DNA of 64,000 nucleotides from Pseudomonadota bacterium (GTDB lineage: Bacteria; Pseudomonadota; Gammaproteobacteria; Steroidobacterales; JBCBZW01): positions 1 through 64,000 of the forward strand of contig JBCBZW010000019.1 in NCBI GenBank assembly GCA_039815145.1, given 5' to 3'. The position numbers and the translations under genes are program-made. Shown here in pieces: positions 54,928-64,000 of the stretch. Within the stretch, counting starts at the first letter, position 1; the number at the start of each line of letters is the position of its first letter. The notes beneath the pieces are model-generated. The model made no database searches. It was not told the origin of the DNA and was given only the letters and a program-made list of their open reading frames with translations.

Positions 54928-56247
54928 CTAGGCGTCCGGCCGTTCCGTGTTCCACCCCTCGAGGGTGGACACCACCTTGCCGAGAAAGCGGTTGGCCTGA
55001 TACGCGTCCAACACGCGATGGTCGAGCGACAGGGTCAGGTAACACAGGGGGGCGATGCGGATCACGTCTTCGCCCTCGATCTCCCTGACCACCACCTCCT
55101 TGCGCAACTTGCCGATGCCGAGGATGGCCGACTGCGGTTGGTTGATGATCACCGGTGCCGCAAGCACGCTGCCGCTCACCCCGTGGTTGGAGATGGTGAA
55201 CGTGCCGCCGTCCATGTCCTTTGCGGTCAGCGAGCGCGACCTGGCGCGGTCGGTCATGTCAGCGATGCCCTGGGCAATGCCGAATAGATTTCGTTGGTGC
55301 ACGTCGCGGAGCACCGGCACCACCAGGCCCTCATCCCCCAGGGCCACAGCCAACCCGATGTGGATCTCCTCCCACAGGAGCAGGTCATCGCCGTCGAGGG
55401 AACTGTTCACCTCGGGCACCTCGCGCAGGGCCTGCGCCGTCGCCGCCACGAAGTACGCGCTCAGGGTGAGGTCCACGCCACGCTGGCGATAGTCGTCGCG
55501 GTGCGCCTTACGATGGGCGAGCACACGGGACATGTCGCATTCGAACACCGTGGTGACATGGGGCGCCGTGTGCAGCAGGCTGCGCGAGAGGTGCTCGGCG
55601 ATGGCGCGACGCATGGGGCTGAGGGGAACCCGACGCGACGCGCCATCGTCGGCGCGGCTGGACGCAGGACGAGGGTCGCTCGTCACGCCCTGGGGATCAT
55701 TGCTGTCGTTGTGGCGGCGGGCACCTGATTGGCGATCGAGGTAGCCGCGGACGTCGGCGGCGCTCAAGCGACCGTCGCGACCGGAGCCGCGCACGCTCGC
55801 CAGCAGGGTGGTGAGATCGAGGTGGTTCTCGGCCACCAGGCGCTTCACGGCGGGGCTCAGGCGACGGCTTGCATCAGGCCCACCGTTGCGTACGCCCACC
55901 GTTGGTGGGTCGCTTGCTTCCGTCACGGGTGTCGGGGAAGCGTCGGTGCCTTCCACGTCGCCGCCGCGCGAAAGGCGCGCGACCACGGCGCCGCCCGGCA
56001 GGTCATCACCCGGCTGGAAGCACCACTGCGCCAGGACGCCGTCGCAGGGGGCGGCGAGCTCCACTACCACCTTGTCCGTTTCCACTTCGGCGATGGGCTC
56101 GTGGGCCTGCACGGCATCACCCACGCCCTTCAGGCAGGTGCCGAGGACGGCGCGGGTCCCGTCCTGAAGGTCTTGCTCCATGCTCACGCAGACCAGGTCG
56201 TCGCCGGTCACAGTGCCATCGGCGATGGCCGGATCGTCCGTGTGCAC
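54928..56247 (-). CDS. 2-oxoacid dehydrogenase E2 (dihydrolipoamide acyltransferase)
   Basis: The 439-residue E2 has one N-terminal lipoyl domain (ETDKVVVE, Lys59 lipoylated), a peripheral-subunit-binding domain (SRRLSPAVKRLVAENHLDLTTL, about 165-205) and a C-terminal acyltransferase with LSLDHRVLDAYQANRFL (His410, Asp414). The usual Gly after the Asp is Ala here. The GTG start lies 2 bp after the E1 stop. It most resembles branched-chain (Bkd) E2 proteins. No E3 gene is adjacent, so the complex must borrow lipoamide dehydrogenase. Confidence 0.9.
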   Translation of the reverse strand: MHTDDPAIADGTVTGDDLVCVSMEQDLQDGTRAVLGTCLKGVGDAVQAHEPIAEVETDKVVVELAAPCDGVLAQWCFQPGDDLPGGAVVARLSRGGDVEGTDASPTPVTEASDPPTVGVRNGGPDASRRLSPAVKRLVAENHLDLTTLLASVRGSGRDGRLSAADVRGYLDRQSGARRHNDSNDPQGVTSDPRPASSRADDGASRRVPLSPMRRAIAEHLSRSLLHTAPHVTTVFECDMSRVLAHRKAHRDDYRQRGVDLTLSAYFVAATAQALREVPEVNSSLDGDDLLLWEEIHIGLAVALGDEGLVVPVLRDVHQRNLFGIAQGIADMTDRARSRSLTAKDMDGGTFTISNHGVSGSVLAAPVIINQPQSAILGIGKLRKEVVVREIEGEDVIRIAPLCYLTLSLDHRVLDAYQANRFLGKVVSTLEGWNTERPDA

Positions 56248-56249
56248 GC

Positions 56250-58370
56250 TCAAAACTCCAGCAGCGCGCGCAGGGCGTGCTCGATATCCTTGGGCGTGGG
56301 TACCGCCGCCTCCAACAGCGCGGGACTGTGGGGGCTCGGGATGTCGGCCATGGCCAGGCGCCGTACCGGCGCGTCCAGGGCGAAGAAGGCCTCGTCCGTG
56401 ATCGTCGCAGCGATCTCTGCACCGAAGCCTGCCGTTAGGTTGTCCTCGTGCACGATCAGGCAACGACCCGTACGCTGGACAGAACTCAGGACGCACTCGC
56501 GATCCCAGGGCACCAGGGTGCGAAGATCGATGACTTCCACCTCTCCCACGCCCGCCGCCGCCAGCGTGGTGCAGGCCTGCTCGGCGCGGGCCACCATCGC
56601 GCCCCAGGTGACGAGCGTCACGGCATCGCCTGGTCGCACCACACGCGCCTGTCCGAAGGGCAAGACGTAGTCATCGCCGGGGTATTCCGTGCGCGCGCTC
56701 GCCGCGTCCAGGAGGGCGCGATGCTCGAAGAAGATTACCGGGTCGTCGCCGCGCAAGGCGCTGCGCAGCAGGCCCGTGGCATCCTCGGCATTCGAGGGGA
56801 ACGCGAGTTTCCAGCCCACCGCGTGCGCCCACTTCACCTCGCCCGTCTGGCTGTGCCAGGGGTCGCCGCAGCGGAAAAAGCCCCCGGGCATGCGAACCAC
56901 GATCGGCGCCGCGAAGCGGTTGCCCGTGCGCCAGCGCATGCTCCCGCAGTCGTTGAGTTGCTCCTCGGCCGGATCGGCGTACTTACGGAACTGAATCTCC
57001 GGCACGGGCAGCAGGCCCGCCATGGCCATGCCGACGGCGCGACCGATGATTCCCTCCTCGTTGAGGCTGGTGTCGAAGACTCGCGCCTCGCCGTGACGTT
57101 GGGCGAGCCCTAAGGTGGCGCCGTGTACGCCGCCCTTCGCTCCCACATCCTCACCGAACACGATCATTCGCTCGTTGCGGCTGAGCTCCGCGTCGAGGGT
57201 GCGGCGAATGGCGGCCAGCATGTTCACCCGTCCTGGCTGCGCCTGCACCTCGCGACTGCCGGCGAGCGGCGCGACCCCAACGCCGCGCAGACCACCGATC
57301 TGTTGCGCTTCCTGCGGATCGGAGAAGACGAAGCGGGTCACCGTAGCCGGATCCAGGCTCGGCCTCGCCAGCGCACGGTCCAGGGCATTCTCCACGGTGG
57401 CGCTCGCCACCTCCGCGTGCACCTGCCAGTCGTGCTCGCTCATCTGCGTGGGCACGAGAAAGTCGTGAAGGCGCGCGAGTGGGTCGCGGTGCCCCTCCGC
57501 CTCCAGTTCGGCGTCAGGCCGGTAGGCTTGCGTGTCCTGCGCCGAGTGCCCGCTCAGTCGGGGGACGGAAAGACGCAGCATGGCGGGGCGACGCTGACCT
57601 CTCACGTACGCCACGGCGTCGCTGATCGTCGTCGCCGCGATCTCGGGCTGCGTGCCGTCGCCGTCGAAGATCTCGAGGTTGCCGTAGCTCGCCAGGTTGG
57701 CGGCGATGTTGCCGCCAGGGGTTTGCACGGTCGAGGGCACGGAGATGCCGTAGCCGTTGTCTTCCACGAAGAACAGCATGGGCAGGCTCTGGGCCGTGGC
57801 GATGTTGAGCGCCGACCAAAAGCCGTTGGTCGCGCAGGACGCATCACCGCCCATCGCGACGGCGATCGCCTCGTCGCACGCCTCACCCAAGGCCTGCTCG
57901 CGGTAGCGCAAGGCTTGGGCCCAGCCCGCGATCGGCGTGTACTGAGCACCCACGCCGCCGCACATGGGCAGCATCTTCGGTCCGTTGGGGTTCGGGAGGT
58001 TGAAGACCACGCCGATGTCGCGGCCATCGCTGAACCCGCCTACCTTCATCAAGGGCCCGGCGAGCGCCTCCTCAGGATCCAGGCCGAGGCCGAGCATCAT
58101 CGGCCGCGAGCGGTAGTAGCCGTTCACCGCATCGGCCGGGTTATTCAGACGCTGAGCGAGGAGGAGTTGGGCGAGATCGTGACCGCGAGCGGAGAACTGA
58201 TAGAAGAGCTTGCCTTGGGGGAGCAGTTGCTCTTCCTCGATCGAATCGAGGGCGCGGGAGAGCAGCATCAGTCGGGCGACTTCGGGCCAATCGAAGCTCG
58301 CGCTGCCGGCGCCACTGGAACGGCTCCCGTTGCCGCTGCCGCTGCCGCGTAAGGGGGTTGCTGCCGCCAT
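56250..58370 (-). CDS. 2-oxoacid dehydrogenase E1, fused alpha-beta subunits
   Basis: A 706-residue fusion of E1-alpha and E1-beta. The ThDP motif lies at about 174-205 (MGGDASCATNGFWSALN ... VEDNGYGIS). The beta part starts near residue 380 (VNMLAAIRRTLDAELSRNERMIVFGEDVG) and ends with the transketolase C-terminal domain. Fused forms occur in the branched-chain 2-oxoacid dehydrogenase group. ATG 58370 is followed by a Gly/Ser-rich linker; upstream frame has no homology. It is divergent from an Lrp regulator and heads the E1-E2 operon. Confidence 0.9.
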   Translation of the reverse strand: MAAATPLRGSGSGNGSRSSGAGSASFDWPEVARLMLLSRALDSIEEEQLLPQGKLFYQFSARGHDLAQLLLAQRLNNPADAVNGYYRSRPMMLGLGLDPEEALAGPLMKVGGFSDGRDIGVVFNLPNPNGPKMLPMCGGVGAQYTPIAGWAQALRYREQALGEACDEAIAVAMGGDASCATNGFWSALNIATAQSLPMLFFVEDNGYGISVPSTVQTPGGNIAANLASYGNLEIFDGDGTQPEIAATTISDAVAYVRGQRRPAMLRLSVPRLSGHSAQDTQAYRPDAELEAEGHRDPLARLHDFLVPTQMSEHDWQVHAEVASATVENALDRALARPSLDPATVTRFVFSDPQEAQQIGGLRGVGVAPLAGSREVQAQPGRVNMLAAIRRTLDAELSRNERMIVFGEDVGAKGGVHGATLGLAQRHGEARVFDTSLNEEGIIGRAVGMAMAGLLPVPEIQFRKYADPAEEQLNDCGSMRWRTGNRFAAPIVVRMPGGFFRCGDPWHSQTGEVKWAHAVGWKLAFPSNAEDATGLLRSALRGDDPVIFFEHRALLDAASARTEYPGDDYVLPFGQARVVRPGDAVTLVTWGAMVARAEQACTTLAAAGVGEVEVIDLRTLVPWDRECVLSSVQRTGRCLIVHEDNLTAGFGAEIAATITDEAFFALDAPVRRLAMADIPSPHSPALLEAAVPTPKDIEHALRALLEF

Positions 58371-58438
58371 CTCGCTCGCTCCGCGTTCGCTGGTTTCAGG
58401 AAGTGTAGAGCGCAAAGCCGGCAAGGTGCTGCCCTTTT

Positions 58439-58449
58439 CTTTGGCAAAG
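58439..58449. promoter_or_regulatory. Palindrome in the E1/lrp divergent promoter region
   Basis: CTTTG-G-CAAAG is a perfect palindrome in the 130-bp gap between E1 and lrp, with further AT-rich sequence (58460-58475) alongside. Lrp-type regulators often bind such loosely conserved sites. Confidence 0.35.
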
Positions 58450-58500
58450 CAGCGCAGCATTAGTAGAATATTGCTCCAGGAGAGGTATGGGGAAAAGAAT

Positions 58501-58977
58501 GTGCCCTCGGAATTGGATGACGCGGACTTCCGCATCCTGCAGCAACTGCAGGAAAATGCGCGCCTCTCGAACAAGGCTTTGGCCGAGCGGGTAGCGCTCT
58601 CGGCCTCCCCCTGTTGGCGGCGAGTACGCGAGCTCGAGGAACAGGGGGTGATTACGGACTACGTGACGCGCCTGGATCGCCATCGCCTCGGCTATCGTAT
58701 TCTGGCGCTCGCCAGCGTCTCACTGGAGAACCACCACACCGAGTCGGTCGCCGCCTTCGACGCGGCCATCCAAACCTGGCCGGAGGTGCTCGAGTGCCAC
58801 AAGATCAGCGGCGCTTACGACTACATGCTGAAAGTGGTGGCCGAGGACCTCGCCAGCTACGACGAGTTCATCTCCAAGCGCGTGTTGCAGTTGCCATGCG
58901 TGCGGGAGCTGAACACCACCTTTTCGATGCGAGAGATGAAGAGCACCACTCGCCTCCCACTACCCGGCGACACGTGA
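58501..58977 (+). CDS. Lrp/AsnC family regulator (BkdR-like)
   Basis: This 158-residue regulator has the Lrp helix-turn-helix (LDDADFRILQQLQENARLSNKALAERVALSASPCWRRVRELEEQGVI) and the RAM ligand domain (VLECHKISGAYDYMLKVVAEDLASYDEFI). The GTG at 58501 has GGGGA seven bases upstream and gives the normal N terminus. Divergence from the E1-E2 operon mirrors bkdR of pseudomonads, where Lrp-like protein activates branched-chain keto-acid dehydrogenase genes. The ligand may be an amino acid such as Leu or Phe. Confidence 0.92.
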   Translation: MPSELDDADFRILQQLQENARLSNKALAERVALSASPCWRRVRELEEQGVITDYVTRLDRHRLGYRILALASVSLENHHTESVAAFDAAIQTWPEVLECHKISGAYDYMLKVVAEDLASYDEFISKRVLQLPCVRELNTTFSMREMKSTTRLPLPGDT

Positions 58978-59018
58978 ACGAACGCGAGAACTTGTCAGCG
59001 CCCGTGGAGGGTGGTCAA

Positions 59019-59099
59019 ATGCTGGCCATGAACGTGATCGCGCCCCTCGCCACCCGTCGCCGACTGCGACGCCGACGCTCCCGAGCCTTCTCCGGGTAG
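59019..59099 (+). CDS. Arginine-rich leader peptide of the arg operon (candidate)
   Basis: A 26-codon ORF begins at ATG 59019 with GGAGG (59006-59010) eight bases upstream, an ideal ribosome site. It ends with TAG at 59097. Codons 13-22 read RRRLRRRRSR: eight Arg codons out of ten, four of them CGA. The peptide has no other recognisable feature. It lies 41 bp after lrp and 120 bp before the arg operon, and is followed by mutually exclusive hairpins and an intrinsic terminator. This is exactly the layout of an amino-acid attenuator leader. An initiating ATG at 59028 is also possible. Confidence 0.75.
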   Translation: MLAMNVIAPLATRRRLRRRRSRAFSG

Positions 59100-59168
59100 A
59101 GCACGCGCGCGCAGGCATAACAGGCCGCACACCGTTCCTCGAAAACCCGGCATCCGCTGGGTTTTTTT
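59052..59168 (+). promoter_or_regulatory. Candidate arginine transcription attenuator
   Basis: Three short segments can pair alternatively. Segment 1 ACCCG (59052-59056, at the start of the Arg run) can pair with segment 2 CGGGT (59093-59097, overlapping the leader stop). Segment 2 extended, CCGGGT (59092-59097), can instead pair with ACCCGG (59145-59150), which is the 5' arm of the terminator. CCCG (59080-59083) is another partner for segment 2. A ribosome stalled on Arg codons would free segment 2 and prevent the terminator; one reaching the stop codon would cover it and allow termination. Pairings are seen; regulation is inferred. Confidence 0.65.
59142..59168 (+). terminator. Intrinsic terminator before argF'
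   Basis: AAAACCCGGC (59142-59151) and GCTGGGTTTT (59156-59165) form a ten-pair stem with one G-U and an ATCC loop, directly followed by the rest of a seven-T run (59162-59168). It is the best intrinsic terminator in the window. It lies upstream of an operon rather than after one, supporting an attenuator role, though it could also end lrp transcripts. Confidence 0.85.
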
Positions 59169-59223
59169 ACATCTGAAGCTCAGTCCGCCGCCGCCCACAC
59201 CTTCTCGACTGGACCCAAAACGC

Positions 59224-60231
59224 ATGCGACATTTCCTGACCACCGCCGACTGGTCACGTGACGAGTTAGCCCATCTGCTGGATGAGGCGAGCAAGCTCAA
59301 GCAGGCGCGCTACGGCGACGCCCTCGCCAACCGCAGCATCGCCCTGCTCTTCTTCAACCCATCCCTGCGCACGCGCACGTCCTTCGAGCTCGGCATGCAT
59401 CAGCTCGGCGGCAAGGCGATCGTGCTCCAACCGGGCAAGGACGCCTGGGGTATCGAATTCGAGCCGGGGGCGATCATGGACGGCGAGGCAGAGGAGCACA
59501 TGAGCGAGGTGGCGGGTGTGCTCTCGCGGTACGTGGATCTGATCGGCGTGCGCGCCTTCCCCAAGTTCCAGGATTGGCACGTCGACCGCGAGGACCGTCT
59601 CCTCAACGCCCTGGCGACCCACGCCAGCGTGCCGGTGATCAACATGGAGACGATCACCCATCCCTGCCAGGAGCTGGCCCTGATGCTCACCCTCAAGGAG
59701 CACCTCGGGCGCCTGGAGGGGCGTCGCTTCCTGCTCACCTGGACCTACCATCCGAAGCCCCTGAACACAGCGGTAGCGAACTCCGCCCTGCTCATCGCCG
59801 CCAAGTTCGGCATGGACGTGACCTTGCTGTGTCCCAACCAGGACTACCTGCTGGACGAGCGGTACATGCACCTAGGGGAGGCGTTCACTCAACAGAACGG
59901 CCGATCGCTGACCGTGACCCACGACGTCGACAAGGCGTACGAAGGGGCTGAAGTGGTCTACGCCAAGAGCTGGGGGGCGCTGCCCTACTTCGGCCGCTGG
60001 GAGGAGGAGAAACCCGTGCGCGAGGCGCACCGCCATTTCATGGTGGACGAGGCGAAGATGGCGCGGACCGACGGCGCCCTGTTCAGCCACTGCCTGCCCG
60101 TGCGCCGCAACGTGAAGGTGAGCGACGCGGTCCTCGACTCGCCGGCCTGCGTGGCCATCGATGAGGCGGAGAACCGTCTCCACGTGCAGAAAGCCCTGAT
60201 GATCGATCTACTGCAGAGGAATGGCGCATGA
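59224..60231 (+). CDS. argF': N-acetylornithine carbamoyltransferase
   Basis: This 335-residue transcarbamylase makes N-acetylcitrulline from N-acetylornithine and carbamoyl phosphate. The carbamoyl-phosphate loop is SLRTRTSFELGMHQLGG, rather than the STRTR of ordinary OTCase. LQPGKDAWGIEF, MDGEAEEH, TWTYHPKPLNTAVANSALL and SHCLPVRRNVK match the Xanthomonas AOTCase. The Glu pair in AEEH covers the residue (Glu92 there) that selects acetyl- over succinyl-ornithine. ATG 59224 starts the conserved MRHFLTTADWSRDEL. It is first in a tightly overlapping operon behind the leader. Confidence 0.93.
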   Translation: MRHFLTTADWSRDELAHLLDEASKLKQARYGDALANRSIALLFFNPSLRTRTSFELGMHQLGGKAIVLQPGKDAWGIEFEPGAIMDGEAEEHMSEVAGVLSRYVDLIGVRAFPKFQDWHVDREDRLLNALATHASVPVINMETITHPCQELALMLTLKEHLGRLEGRRFLLTWTYHPKPLNTAVANSALLIAAKFGMDVTLLCPNQDYLLDERYMHLGEAFTQQNGRSLTVTHDVDKAYEGAEVVYAKSWGALPYFGRWEEEKPVREAHRHFMVDEAKMARTDGALFSHCLPVRRNVKVSDAVLDSPACVAIDEAENRLHVQKALMIDLLQRNGA

Positions 60232-61457
60232 GCAATACACCCGTCGTACTCGCCTTCTCCGGCGGCCTGGACACCAGCTACTGCGTGCCCTGGCTGCGCG
60301 AGCAAGGCTATGAGGTGACGACCCTGTTCGTCGACTCCGGCGGCGTGAGTCGGGAGGAAGTGATCGCCATCGAGGCGCGTGCTCACGAGCTCGGCGCCGT
60401 GCGCCACGTGACCTTCGACGGCGGCGATCGCCTATGGCAGGACGTGGTGATCCCCCTGGTCCGTGCCGGCGCCACCTACCAGGACCAATATCCCCTGCTC
60501 TGCTCCGACCGATACCTCGTGGTGCAACGCTCCTTGGAGCTGTGCCGGGAGATCGGCGCCTCGCACTTCGCCCACGGTTGCACCGGGATGGGCAACGACC
60601 AGGTGCGCTTCGACATCGCGGCACAAACCCTGGGCGATGCGACCGGCGGCATCAGCATCGTCGCCCCCGTGCGGGAGACGCAGGCTCAGGTGGATGGGGT
60701 GCGGGACTACGAGATGGCGTACCTGCGCGAGCGTGGCTTCGGCGTATCCGCCAAGGCCAGCCGCTACACGGTGAACGAGAACCTGCTCGGGGTAACCATC
60801 TCGGGCAACGAGATCGACGAGTGGCAGGCTCCCGGCGAGGGCACCTGGCAACTGTGCCGTCCCCGCGCGGAGTGGCCCACCGAAACCATGTCGGCGCAAA
60901 TCGAGTTCGTCGAGGGCGTTGGGGTGGCGCTGGACGGCGAGGCCATGCCCGGGGCCGCCCTCCTCCAGGCGCTCAATCAGCGCTTCGGTGCCTACGGCGT
61001 CGGGCGCGGGATCTACACGGGCGACACCTGCGTAGGTCTCAAGGGCCGCATCGTCTTCGAGGCACCCGGCCTTACGGCACTGTTGACCGCCCATCGTGCC
61101 TTGGAAGAAGCGGTGAGTTCACGCCTGCAGAACCGCTTCAAGCCGATGGTGGCGGACAAGTGGGTGGAGCTCGCCTACGAGGGCCTCTTCTTCGATCCCT
61201 TGCGGGCGGATCTGGAGGCCTACCTGGCCAGCGCCGCACGCTGCGTAAACGGTCGCGTCACTCTCTCCACGGACGGCGCGAAGGTGCATGCCACGGCGGT
61301 GGAATCGGCGCATCTTCTGCGCGACGCCGACGCCGTCTACGCACAGAAAGCAAGCTGGAGCGGTATCGAGGCGCAAGGCTTCATTCGCCTGTTCGGGCAG
61401 AGCTCACGCCTCTGGTCGCAGGTGAACGGGGGCGCGTCCTCGGAGGATCAGCAATGA
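60228..61457 (+). CDS. argG: Argininosuccinate synthase
   Basis: A 409-residue enzyme joining citrulline and aspartate with ATP. The PP-loop is FSGGLDTSYC (SGGLDTS at 11-17), followed by THGCTGMGNDQVRFD-type sequence (FAHGCTGMGNDQVRFD) and FKPMVADKWVELAYEGLFFDPL. The start overlaps the argF' stop as ATGA. In this pathway citrulline is provided by deacetylation of acetylcitrulline by the next gene product. Confidence 0.96.
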   Translation: MSNTPVVLAFSGGLDTSYCVPWLREQGYEVTTLFVDSGGVSREEVIAIEARAHELGAVRHVTFDGGDRLWQDVVIPLVRAGATYQDQYPLLCSDRYLVVQRSLELCREIGASHFAHGCTGMGNDQVRFDIAAQTLGDATGGISIVAPVRETQAQVDGVRDYEMAYLRERGFGVSAKASRYTVNENLLGVTISGNEIDEWQAPGEGTWQLCRPRAEWPTETMSAQIEFVEGVGVALDGEAMPGAALLQALNQRFGAYGVGRGIYTGDTCVGLKGRIVFEAPGLTALLTAHRALEEAVSSRLQNRFKPMVADKWVELAYEGLFFDPLRADLEAYLASAARCVNGRVTLSTDGAKVHATAVESAHLLRDADAVYAQKASWSGIEAQGFIRLFGQSSRLWSQVNGGASSEDQQ

Positions 61458-62602
61458 CCGATCGACAAGCCCTCGAGCGAACGCTCGAACACCTGGCCGC
61501 GCTGGTGTCCTTCGACACGCAGAACCCACCGCGCGACATCGATGAAGGGGGGCTGTTCGCCTACGTCGCCGACCAGCTGCCGGACTTCACCGTCGCGATC
61601 GACAATCATGGCGCAGGGTGCGTCTCTCTGCTGGCCGTACGTGGCCAGCCGGACACGGTGTTCAACGTGCACATGGACACGGTGCCCGGCACAGCCCATT
61701 GGCAGCGCGATCCCCTGAGCTTGAGCATCGAGGATGGACGCGCCTACGGCCTCGGCGCCTGCGACATCAAGGGTGCTGCGGCCTGTTTGCTCACCGTGGC
61801 AGCACAGACCGACAGTCCGATGGCGTTGCTGCTGAGCTCGGATGAAGAGGCCGGCGACAACCGGTGCATCGCCAACTTCCTACGCAAGGACCATGGTTTT
61901 CGCCGGGCGGTGATCGCAGAGCCGACCCGCTGCGAGGCGGTGCTGTGCCACCGCGGCATCAATTCCTGGGCGGGTCGCTTCACCGGCGAAGCGGGTCACT
62001 CCTCGCAAGTGCGTGCGCTCACCGATAGCGCCCTGCATCAGGCAGCCCATTGGGTGAGTGCTGCCGTGAGCTGGGCACAAGCGCAACAGCGCGAGGCGCA
62101 CTTCGACGGCCTGCGCGGCGTCTGCTTCAACACGGGCACGCTGCACGGGGGCGTGAAGAACAACGTGATCGCGCCCACCGCAGAGCTGACCTTTGGCTTG
62201 CGCCCGCTGCCGGGCCAGTCACCGCAGGCTCTGGCGCAAGCGGTGCACAGCCTGCACCAGGGTGAGCACCCGGTGGAGTGGACGCCGCGTTACGCGGGCC
62301 CGGCCCTGCCAGACGCTGACGCCCAGGGTGGCTTCGATGCGGCACTCGCGACCGCGCGGGCGTTCGCCGAGGAGCTGGGGTTGCCCCTCGGTGCTGCGGT
62401 GGACTTCTGGACCGAGGCTGCCCTCTTCTCAGCGGCTGGCTTGCCGGCCATGGTCTTCGGTCCCGGCGATATCGCGCAGGCGCATACAGCTGATGAATGG
62501 GTTAGCCTCGATCAACTGGGCACGGCTCTTGCCCACTACCAGCGAATCTTCGGTGCGTCCGACGCCACCAAGGTAGCGTCTGCCGCCGCGGGTGAGGGCT
62601 GA
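61454..62602 (+). CDS. argE': N-acetylcitrulline (acetylornithine-type) deacetylase
   Basis: The 382-residue M20-family metallohydrolase has all di-zinc ligand motifs: VHMDTVPG, GLGACDIKGAAA, SSDEEAGDN (catalytic Glu plus ligand), IAEPTRCEAV and a late His in AQAHTADEW. In an operon with acetylornithine carbamoyltransferase its likely substrate is N-acetyl-L-citrulline, as in Xanthomonas. ATG 61454 overlaps the argG stop; the open frame extends far upstream inside argG but that part is not coding. Confidence 0.92.
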   Translation: MTDRQALERTLEHLAALVSFDTQNPPRDIDEGGLFAYVADQLPDFTVAIDNHGAGCVSLLAVRGQPDTVFNVHMDTVPGTAHWQRDPLSLSIEDGRAYGLGACDIKGAAACLLTVAAQTDSPMALLLSSDEEAGDNRCIANFLRKDHGFRRAVIAEPTRCEAVLCHRGINSWAGRFTGEAGHSSQVRALTDSALHQAAHWVSAAVSWAQAQQREAHFDGLRGVCFNTGTLHGGVKNNVIAPTAELTFGLRPLPGQSPQALAQAVHSLHQGEHPVEWTPRYAGPALPDADAQGGFDAALATARAFAEELGLPLGAAVDFWTEAALFSAAGLPAMVFGPGDIAQAHTADEWVSLDQLGTALAHYQRIFGASDATKVASAAAGEG

Positions 62603-62605
62603 GCG

Positions 62606-63919
62606 ATGAAGACCCGTCGCCTGGTCGTCCAGCTGCTCGGCAGCATCGGCAGCACCCGGGAGATACGCCAGTACCTGCAGCGCTTCTCGGGCCTGGATAC
62701 GCACAGCTTCGCGGTGGTGAAGGTGGGCGGTGCCATCCTGCGCGATCAGTTGGATGAGCTCGCCGGTTCCTTGAGCTTCCTGCACCAACTGGGGTTGTTT
62801 CCCGTCGTGGTGCACGGCGCCGGCCCGCAGCTCGATGAGGCCCTGGACGCGGCCGGTATCGACCGCGAGTACCACGAGGGGATGCGTTGCACGTCGGCAC
62901 AGGCGATGCCCCACATCCGTGCGGTCATCCTGCGTCAGAACCTGGCCCTGGTGAGCGCCTTGGAGCGCAACGGCGCCCGCGCCCGGTCGATCCTCACGGG
63001 CACCTTTGAAGCGGAGGCTATCGACGAGGCCACCTACGGTTACGTCGGCCGTGTCGCCCGCGTCCACACGGAGGCCATCGATGCCAGCATCGAGGCGGGT
63101 TGCATCCCGGTGCTGGGTTGCCTCGGCGAGACGGCGGGCGGTCAAACCCTCAACGTCAACGCGGATCTGGCCGCCAATGAACTGGTCGCGACCCTGCAGC
63201 CGAACAAGATCGTGTTCCTGACCGGCACGGGAGGGCTGCTCGATGAGTACGGAGAGATCCTCTCCTCGATCAATCTGCGCACCGACTACGACGCGCTAAT
63301 GAAGGCCGAGTGGGTGCACTCGGGCATGCGCTTGAAGCTGCAGCAAATCAACGCCCTGCTCGAGCGGCTGCCGCCGGACAGCTCCGTTTCCATCACCCGG
63401 CCCCAAGCGCTGGCGCGGGAGCTCTTTACCCACGGGGGTGACGGCACCCTCGTGCGTCGCGGTGAGCAGGTCCACGCCTACGACGCCTGGGACGCCCTCG
63501 ACCGGGAGCGCGCCACCGCCTTGATCGAGTCGGCCTTTCAGCGCCGCCTGGTGCCTGAGTATCAGGACCGCGTGCCATTGCGCGCAGCATACATCTCCGA
63601 TAACTACCGGGCCGGTGCCATCATCAGCGAGTGGCAGGGCATCGCCCGCCTCGACAAGTTCGCCGTCGCCGAGCAAGCGCGCGGCGAAGGCCTGGGCAGG
63701 GTCATCTGGGAGCGCTTACGCACCCATCACCCGAGCATGTTCTGGCGCTCGCGCCCGGACAACCCGGTGAACGATTTTTACTTCGCCGAGAGCGATGGCT
63801 GCATGAAGGGCGATACCTGGAACGTCTTCTGGTACGGCCTCGACGACTTCGACCTGATCCGTGGCTGCGTCGCCTACGCGCGGGCGCAACCGCCGAGCCT
63901 GACGGACCACCTGCCATGA
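62606..63919 (+). CDS. argB: Bifunctional N-acetylglutamate synthase/kinase
   Basis: A 437-residue fusion. The N-terminal amino-acid kinase domain has VVKVGGAIL, LFPVVVHGAGPQLDEAL, NVNADLAANELVATL and IVFLTGTGGLLD. The C-terminal GNAT domain (about 290-437) has RAAYISDNYRAGAIIS, LDKFAVAEQARGEGLGRVIWE with the acetyl-CoA loop, and FWRSRPDNPVNDFYF. This is the Xanthomonas/vertebrate-like NAGS-K type, which does both first steps of arginine synthesis. It begins 3 bp after argE' and overlaps argC. Confidence 0.94.
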   Translation: MKTRRLVVQLLGSIGSTREIRQYLQRFSGLDTHSFAVVKVGGAILRDQLDELAGSLSFLHQLGLFPVVVHGAGPQLDEALDAAGIDREYHEGMRCTSAQAMPHIRAVILRQNLALVSALERNGARARSILTGTFEAEAIDEATYGYVGRVARVHTEAIDASIEAGCIPVLGCLGETAGGQTLNVNADLAANELVATLQPNKIVFLTGTGGLLDEYGEILSSINLRTDYDALMKAEWVHSGMRLKLQQINALLERLPPDSSVSITRPQALARELFTHGGDGTLVRRGEQVHAYDAWDALDRERATALIESAFQRRLVPEYQDRVPLRAAYISDNYRAGAIISEWQGIARLDKFAVAEQARGEGLGRVIWERLRTHHPSMFWRSRPDNPVNDFYFAESDGCMKGDTWNVFWYGLDDFDLIRGCVAYARAQPPSLTDHLP

Positions 63920-64000
63920 CCGCGCGGGTCGCGCTGGTGGGCGCGCGCGGACATACAGGCAGCGAGCTGGTCCAGCTGATCGACAAGCACCCCTACCTGA
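63916..64000 (+). CDS. argC: N-acetyl-gamma-glutamyl-phosphate reductase, 5' part
   Basis: Only the first 28 codons are in the window. They read MTARVALVGARGHTGSELVQL and continue, the NADP-binding GARGxTGxEL start of ArgC. The ATG overlaps the preceding TGA as ATGA. The gene continues past the right edge. Confidence 0.9.
   Translation, partial: MTARVALVGARGHTGSELVQLIDKHPYL

Follow-up and report, generated by a model that had tools for sequence, protein, structure and literature searches.

The ribosome-mediated attenuators of the enteric his and trp operons combine a leader ORF rich in codons for the product amino acid, a stop codon at the antiterminator arm, a mutually exclusive antiterminator and intrinsic terminator, and a first gene of the cognate pathway downstream. 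For arginine, a comparable bacterial case is the Salmonella speF leader, in which consecutive Arg codons of the short ORF orf34/speFL (PF10940) sense arginine by ribosome pausing (PMC6386406). The fungal arginine attenuator peptide (AAP) is likewise a short arginine-related ORF located upstream of a gene of the arginine pathway; it differs in being eukaryotic and translational, and in acting by arginine-induced nascent-peptide arrest. Textbook bacterial arginine control is by ArgR, and the RNA-level arginine regulation that an actinobacterial survey records elsewhere is confined to T-boxes.

Here we analyzed a 64,000-nt stretch of DNA (the window) that carries a short Arg-rich ORF before an argF'-led operon (Table 1). 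Our analysis suggests that positions 59028-59168 likely form a ribosome-mediated transcription attenuator, which would sense charged tRNA-Arg and thereby control an arginine operon of six genes, although no expression data with and without arginine are available. The locus shares all the listed features of the his and trp attenuators. In contrast to them, it would respond to arginine instead of His, Trp, Leu, Ile, Thr or Phe, its leader mRNA is predicted to be near-leaderless, and its 6-pair core antiterminator helix is extended by inner helices. Unlike this locus, orf34/speFL controls a polyamine gene via Rho, RNase G and translation, without an intrinsic terminator (PMC6386406). Nor do argF' leader peptides match Pfam: five of them returned no family, PF10940 included, up to E 10, a search of low power with such very short queries. 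The class of mechanism is known, while the amino-acid specificity is probably new. The open-access literature we searched contained no case of a biosynthetic operon attenuated through an arginine leader peptide, and the main text of the attenuation surveys examined mentions none; subscription papers were mostly uncovered, and a prior description is not excluded.

Table 1 Features of the argF' leader and operon in the window.
Feature	Positions	Strand	Evidence or remark
Predicted sigma-70-type promoter, TTGTCA (58992-58997), 17 nt, TCAAAT (59015-59020)	58992-59020	+	Best score in region
GGAGG, ribosome site of the earlier note	59006-59010	+	Within promoter spacer; missing in G001; probably unused
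Leader ORF, preferred reading MNVIAPLATRRRLRRRRSRAFSG, then stop	59028-59099	+	Start region as in G001, 7 nt past -10 box; Arg-rich leader conserved in family
Control codons	59055-59084	+	8/10 Arg, all CGT/CGC/CGA (four CGA); family avoids CGG/AGR and is enriched in CGA
Segment 1 (protector arm)	59052-59091	+	Pairs with segment 2 and downstream GAGCACGCGCGC if ribosome-free; P(1:2)=0.98 in free RNA
Segment 2, CCGGGT overlapping leader stop; antiterminator 5' arm	59092-59097	+	Pairs with 59145-59150; conserved in family
Inner helices extending antiterminator	59099-59139	+	Minimum-energy structures with ribosome stalled at R61-R76
Segment 3, AAACCCGGC; common to antiterminator and terminator	59143-59151	+	Conservation and pairing in relatives
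Segment 4, GCTGGGTTT and T run; terminator 3' arm	59156-59168	+	168/168 sequence-by-pair cells paired (28 sequences)
argF' (N-acetylornithine carbamoyltransferase type)	59224-60231	+	Best PDB match 3kzc, N-acetylornithine carbamoyltransferase, E 9e-152; Pfam OTCace
argG (argininosuccinate synthase)	60228-61457	+	Family search
argE'-type M20 deacetylase	61454-62602	+	Family search
argA/argB fusion (amino-acid kinase and NAT domain)	62606-63919	+	Family search
argC start, continues beyond window, then argH	63916-64000	+	argC-like and argH-like, named from sequence alone

Leader ORF, predicted promoter and operon

An earlier note on this DNA had described an Arg-rich 26-codon ORF, an overlapping CCGGGT and a terminator with a seven-T tail. 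All of these statements were confirmed, and the anatomy of the element is shown. The ORF as described comprises ATG 59019 plus 25 codons and ends at TAG 59097-59099, and its control codons read CGT CGC CGA CTG CGA CGC CGA CGC TCC CGA. The Arg-rich leader exceeds chance expectation: among 3000 dinucleotide shuffles of the intergenic sequence (58978-59223), none produced an ORF with eight Arg in ten codons and 3 reached seven, and only one further such ORF of 10-60 aa exists in the entire 64 kb, on the opposite strand.

The note had also placed the start at ATG 59019, with an ideal GGAGG site. The GGAGG is present, but both the start and the ribosome site are probably wrong. None of 50 shuffles scored as well as the predicted promoter, and a genome of the same genus (G001) carries TTGTCA-17-TGAAAT at the same place. 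In G001 the ATG aligned to 59019 is out of frame (ATGCAATGA), and the start region common to both genomes is ATG 59028. As the promoter lies 7 nt before this ATG, with the RNA start predicted at about 59027-59028, on the ATG itself, the transcript would be leaderless and the GGAGG would fall inside the promoter spacer. We consider it likely that the leader starts at ATG 59028 on a near-leaderless transcript and that the longer reading from 59019, with its GGAGG, is not used; the promoter is only predicted, the 5' end in this organism is inferred, and the disuse of the GGAGG is inferred from that promoter and the comparison with G001. A -10 box ends 6-9 nt ahead of the leader ATG in 16 of 37 scored relatives. 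For transcription beginning upstream of the leader ORF, the window offers a predicted promoter, and a RACE 5' end comes only from Xanthomonas oryzae.

Codon choice in the leaders differs from that in argF'. CGG, AGA and AGG make up 11% of leader Arg codons versus 35% in argF' outside Xanthomonadales, and 3% versus 15% within; for CGA the values are 29% versus 10% and 36% versus 2%, respectively. This direction agrees with the idea of leaders reading one tRNA box sensitive to limitation, but the p-values are inflated by relatedness and RNA pairing. Selective charging of tRNA isoacceptors, Arg included, has been discussed (PMC1183508).

The operon content is shown by the searches in Table 1, and beyond the window an argC-like ORF (117-1067 of L148) is followed by an argH-like ORF. 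Upstream, an Lrp/AsnC-type gene (58501-58977) lies on the same strand and ends about 41 nt ahead of the ATG. Within 54928-58977 this regulator adjoins divergent 2-oxo-acid dehydrogenase-like genes, named from their sequence, among which a 774-aa ORF resembles fused E1 alpha and beta; a BkdR-type pair is possible.

Membership in the attenuator class calls, among other things, for a short leader ORF with several product-amino-acid codons, met by 8/10 Arg and by Arg runs in relatives; for an intrinsic terminator between the leader ORF and the first structural gene, also met; for an antiterminator that excludes the terminator and is freed by control-codon stalling, met on computed folds and conservation; and for genes 3' of the element that make the sensed amino acid, met by argF'-argG-argE'-argA/B-argC(-argH).

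Competing folds of the leader RNA

In the proposed mechanism, the RNA would start at about 59027-59028 and the leader would be translated almost from its 5' end. When arginine is ample, the ribosome would reach the stop and cover segment 2 (59092-59097), segments 3 and 4 would pair, and polymerase would stop at the T run. Under arginine shortage, the ribosome would instead stall on the Arg codons and mask segment 1; segment 2 could then pair with segment 3 ahead of the synthesis of segment 4, and the operon would be transcribed. Without translation, the 1:2 hairpin would hide segment 2, leading to termination. Both the stalling and the response to arginine are inferred.

The Arg run begins with ACCCG (59052-59056), and the terminator consists of AAACCCGGC (59143-59151), ATCC and GCTGGGTTT (59156-59164), with seven T at 59162-59168. 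We simulated the switch with RNA present only as far as segment 3 and the ribosome stalled at set positions. For the window, P(2:3) before segment 4 was 0.01 in free RNA, rose to 1.00 for stalls at R61-R76 and was 0.00 for a ribosome at the stop; this last value follows from the assumed 13-nt ribosome footprint. With a ribosome stalled on an Arg codon, 54 of 55 leaders formed the antiterminator. Across leaders, P(2:3) in free RNA had a median of 0.62, which counts against a general protector hairpin. In this set a few rows have the wrong reading frame, which displaces the stall positions by only 1-2 bases. The earlier description of the antiterminator as a helix of only six base pairs failed, as inner helices within 59099-59139 lengthen and strengthen it, giving a folding energy of -21 kcal/mol for 59089-59152.

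Even with a stalled ribosome, the terminator is favored over the antiterminator at equilibrium, and it is always the more stable fold in the complete RNA. Therefore, the switch must be kinetic. Other attenuators also work kinetically. Whole-RNA folding energy was ordinary (z -0.58), which is expected of a switch in GC-rich DNA. The protector hairpin has only modest support across the family and remains a possibility: despite its high probability in the window (0.98), it does not exceed chance there (shuffle rank 0.30; mean 0.28 over 28 leaders), and many relatives lack it.

Conservation at argF' loci and distribution of ArgR

We collected argF' homologues from named genomes (L001-L080) and from genomes of the same order as the window's (L081-L110), of which L001-L097 are the 97 argF'-type loci, including the window's own locus and two repeats. 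About 78 of the 97 combine an ORF containing Arg codons, a G[CT][CT]GGG segment close to the stop of that ORF, and a CCC[G/A]GC terminator, and the element is present at essentially every gammaproteobacterial argF' locus. The 18 loci without it belong nearly all to Myxococcota, Planctomycetota, Acidobacteria or alphaproteobacteria, according to the sequence records. These counts combine automatic filtering with reading and are approximate: two of the 78 (L027, L037) show the Arg leader alone, further upstream, and the truncated L055 is counted in neither group. L040 passed the automatic filter and was dropped as it has no Arg leader. Imperfect copies exist; in L045/L086 the 2:3 pairing is broken at one position and there is no ATG start, and in L036/L084 the leader ends 8 nt short of segment 2. 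One locus recorded as a 'Rhizobium sp.' MAG (L063) has an Arenimonas-like argF' locus and leader and clusters with L069, probably a binning error.

Conservation of the element is shown at both the codon and the pairing level. Arg identity is retained in relatives while synonymous bases and flanking residues differ; in G001 the 31-nt Arg stretch is identical and flanking codon changes alter the peptide. Xanthomonadales leaders share LTSARMAAGMTSRARRPxxxxxAG followed by the stop, whereas Kangiella and families of the window's order have QQRRRSRI, RRRR and similar runs. Segments 2, 3 and 4 vary in concert (GCCGGG/CCCGGC versus GCTGGG/CCCAGC), their middle bases being C-G-C in 26 of 55 leaders, T-A-T in 19 and otherwise wobble, with one mismatch (L045). 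In an alignment of 28 representative sequences (A2), segments 2:3 were paired in 95% of cells versus at most 72% when slid, and segments 3:4 in 100% versus at most 66%, with both-side changes at three pairs of 3:4. Because the sequences had been cut at the segments prior to alignment, these counts are biased in favor of the structure. A co-change test of segments 2/3 on the argF' tree gave the right direction, but with about six changes, too few for significance.

The window's genome has one copy of the element (E 7e-9) and none before other genes, the next match being at E 0.64. Across 274 genomes of the class, the three top matches were the three argF' genomes. Of the weak matches in other class genomes, those we read resemble ordinary terminators with no Arg leader, and we set them aside. 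The gene 5' of the attenuator is often divergent and varied, argD-, gltB- or cysS-like by sequence (L094, L085, L089, L020, L006), which gives each lineage a promoter region of its own for the attenuated operon.

Membership in the ArgR regulon is not met: no ArgR was found in the window's genome, which is 99.5% complete, and control genomes were positive. This absence is shown, but by itself it is weak evidence because the ArgR Pfam family is present in just 24 of the 274 class genomes. The useful comparison is within the order. Among 59 of its genomes, ArgR occurs in none of the 17 with argF' and in 32 of the 42 others, where it usually lies about 5 kb from an ordinary argF. The pattern is an association within related lineages and does not prove replacement. 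Five genomes of one family of the order (G009, G022, G035, G046, G056) gave neither a carbamoyltransferase-query match nor ArgR; arginine synthesis in that family could be lost or divergent.

Xanthomonas RNA Xoo5 and rival explanations

The Rfam family RF02242 (sRNA Xoo5) covers the 5' portion of the Xanthomonadaceae argF' leader, with matches at L066:4747-4870, L060:4831-4914 and L080:1201-1327. It shares the position before argF', the leader ORF and segment 2 with the element described here. It differs in having been described as a non-coding RNA with no function assigned, in a model that stops before the terminator and leaves the leader ORF unannotated, and in not matching the window (58900-59300, no match up to E 5); no other Rfam family or leader model matches the window. 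In X. oryzae, the RACE 5' end of sRNA-Xoo5 lies 2 nt ahead of the leader AUG, and the RNA directly precedes PXO_00353, an N-acetylornithine carbamoyltransferase (PMC3039613). Northern blots gave bands of about 130 and 100 nt, the longer in early growth only, and no function or arginine link was proposed (PMC3039613). The short Xanthomonas leader RNA is shown. The 124-nt Xoo5 clone ends about 8 nt short of the terminator stem, outside the T run (judged on the X. massiliensis match, L066), and the Northern bands are compatible with terminated or trimmed leader RNA. We propose argF' attenuation as the likely role of RF02242, with the arginine response inferred.

The earlier note's central claim, ribosome-mediated arginine attenuation, was supported wherever checks ran, the arginine response itself being inferred. 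The checks it had named came out in favor: Arg codons and pairings are conserved in relatives, the competing folds switch as predicted, and no argR was found in the genome. A transcription start downstream of 59168, which the note said would refute it, is contradicted by the homologous Xanthomonas RNA with its 5' end 2 nt before the AUG. Its suggestion that the system may be undescribed needs qualifying, as the Xanthomonas version was already catalogued as Xoo5 without a function.

Among rival readings, nascent-peptide arrest survives best. Here AGMTSRARR in the ribosome tunnel would make the ribosome stall in response to arginine or a pathway intermediate, at least in Xanthomonadales, and not through codon hunger alone. 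In its favor, this motif is almost invariant over 50 distinct Xanthomonadales leaders (L001-L080) despite free synonymous sites (Thr ACC/ACG/ACT/ACA, Arg CGC/CGT), an invariance stronger than a codon-hunger sensor requires, and these leaders have few Arg codons (3-4). Against it, leaders outside Xanthomonadales, including the window's, have in common only Arg codons and the overlap of stop and segment 2; the codon choice (CGA, one tRNA box) agrees with codon hunger; and some third positions are also fixed in Xanthomonadales leaders (TCG, GCG, CGA), which suggests an RNA constraint. We regard peptide arrest as unlikely. The same doubt applies to a bolder reading, in which a ligand-dependent Xanthomonadales arrest peptide and the codon-sensing attenuator would be homologous versions that replaced ArgR in argF' lineages.

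A trans-acting small RNA with a target elsewhere, its place before argF' being incidental, is very unlikely. Xoo5 was published as an sRNA with the Northern bands given above, but Xoo5-type elements always lie directly before argF' in tens of genera, encode a conserved ORF and end at a terminator read in the same direction of transcription. For the terminated leader, a secondary role in trans cannot be ruled out. A third rival takes the element as merely the terminator of the upstream Lrp-type gene, beside a chance Arg-rich ORF in GC-rich DNA. It is suggested by the end of that gene at 58977 on the same strand but is all but excluded: relatives keep leader and terminator although their upstream genes differ and are divergent in several cases (gltB-, argD-, cysS-like), so the element is no upstream gene's terminator, and the shuffles (0/3000) speak against a chance ORF.

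Attenuation through charged tRNA-Arg remains our preferred reading. On this reading, attenuation seems to govern the argF'-type operon across a branch of the Gammaproteobacteria to which Lysobacter, Dyella, Kangiella and the plant pathogen genus Xanthomonas belong, and a catalogued orphan small RNA family, RF02242, gains a likely function. The mutual exclusion of attenuator and ArgR in one order would represent a natural case of an RNA regulator taking the place of a protein.
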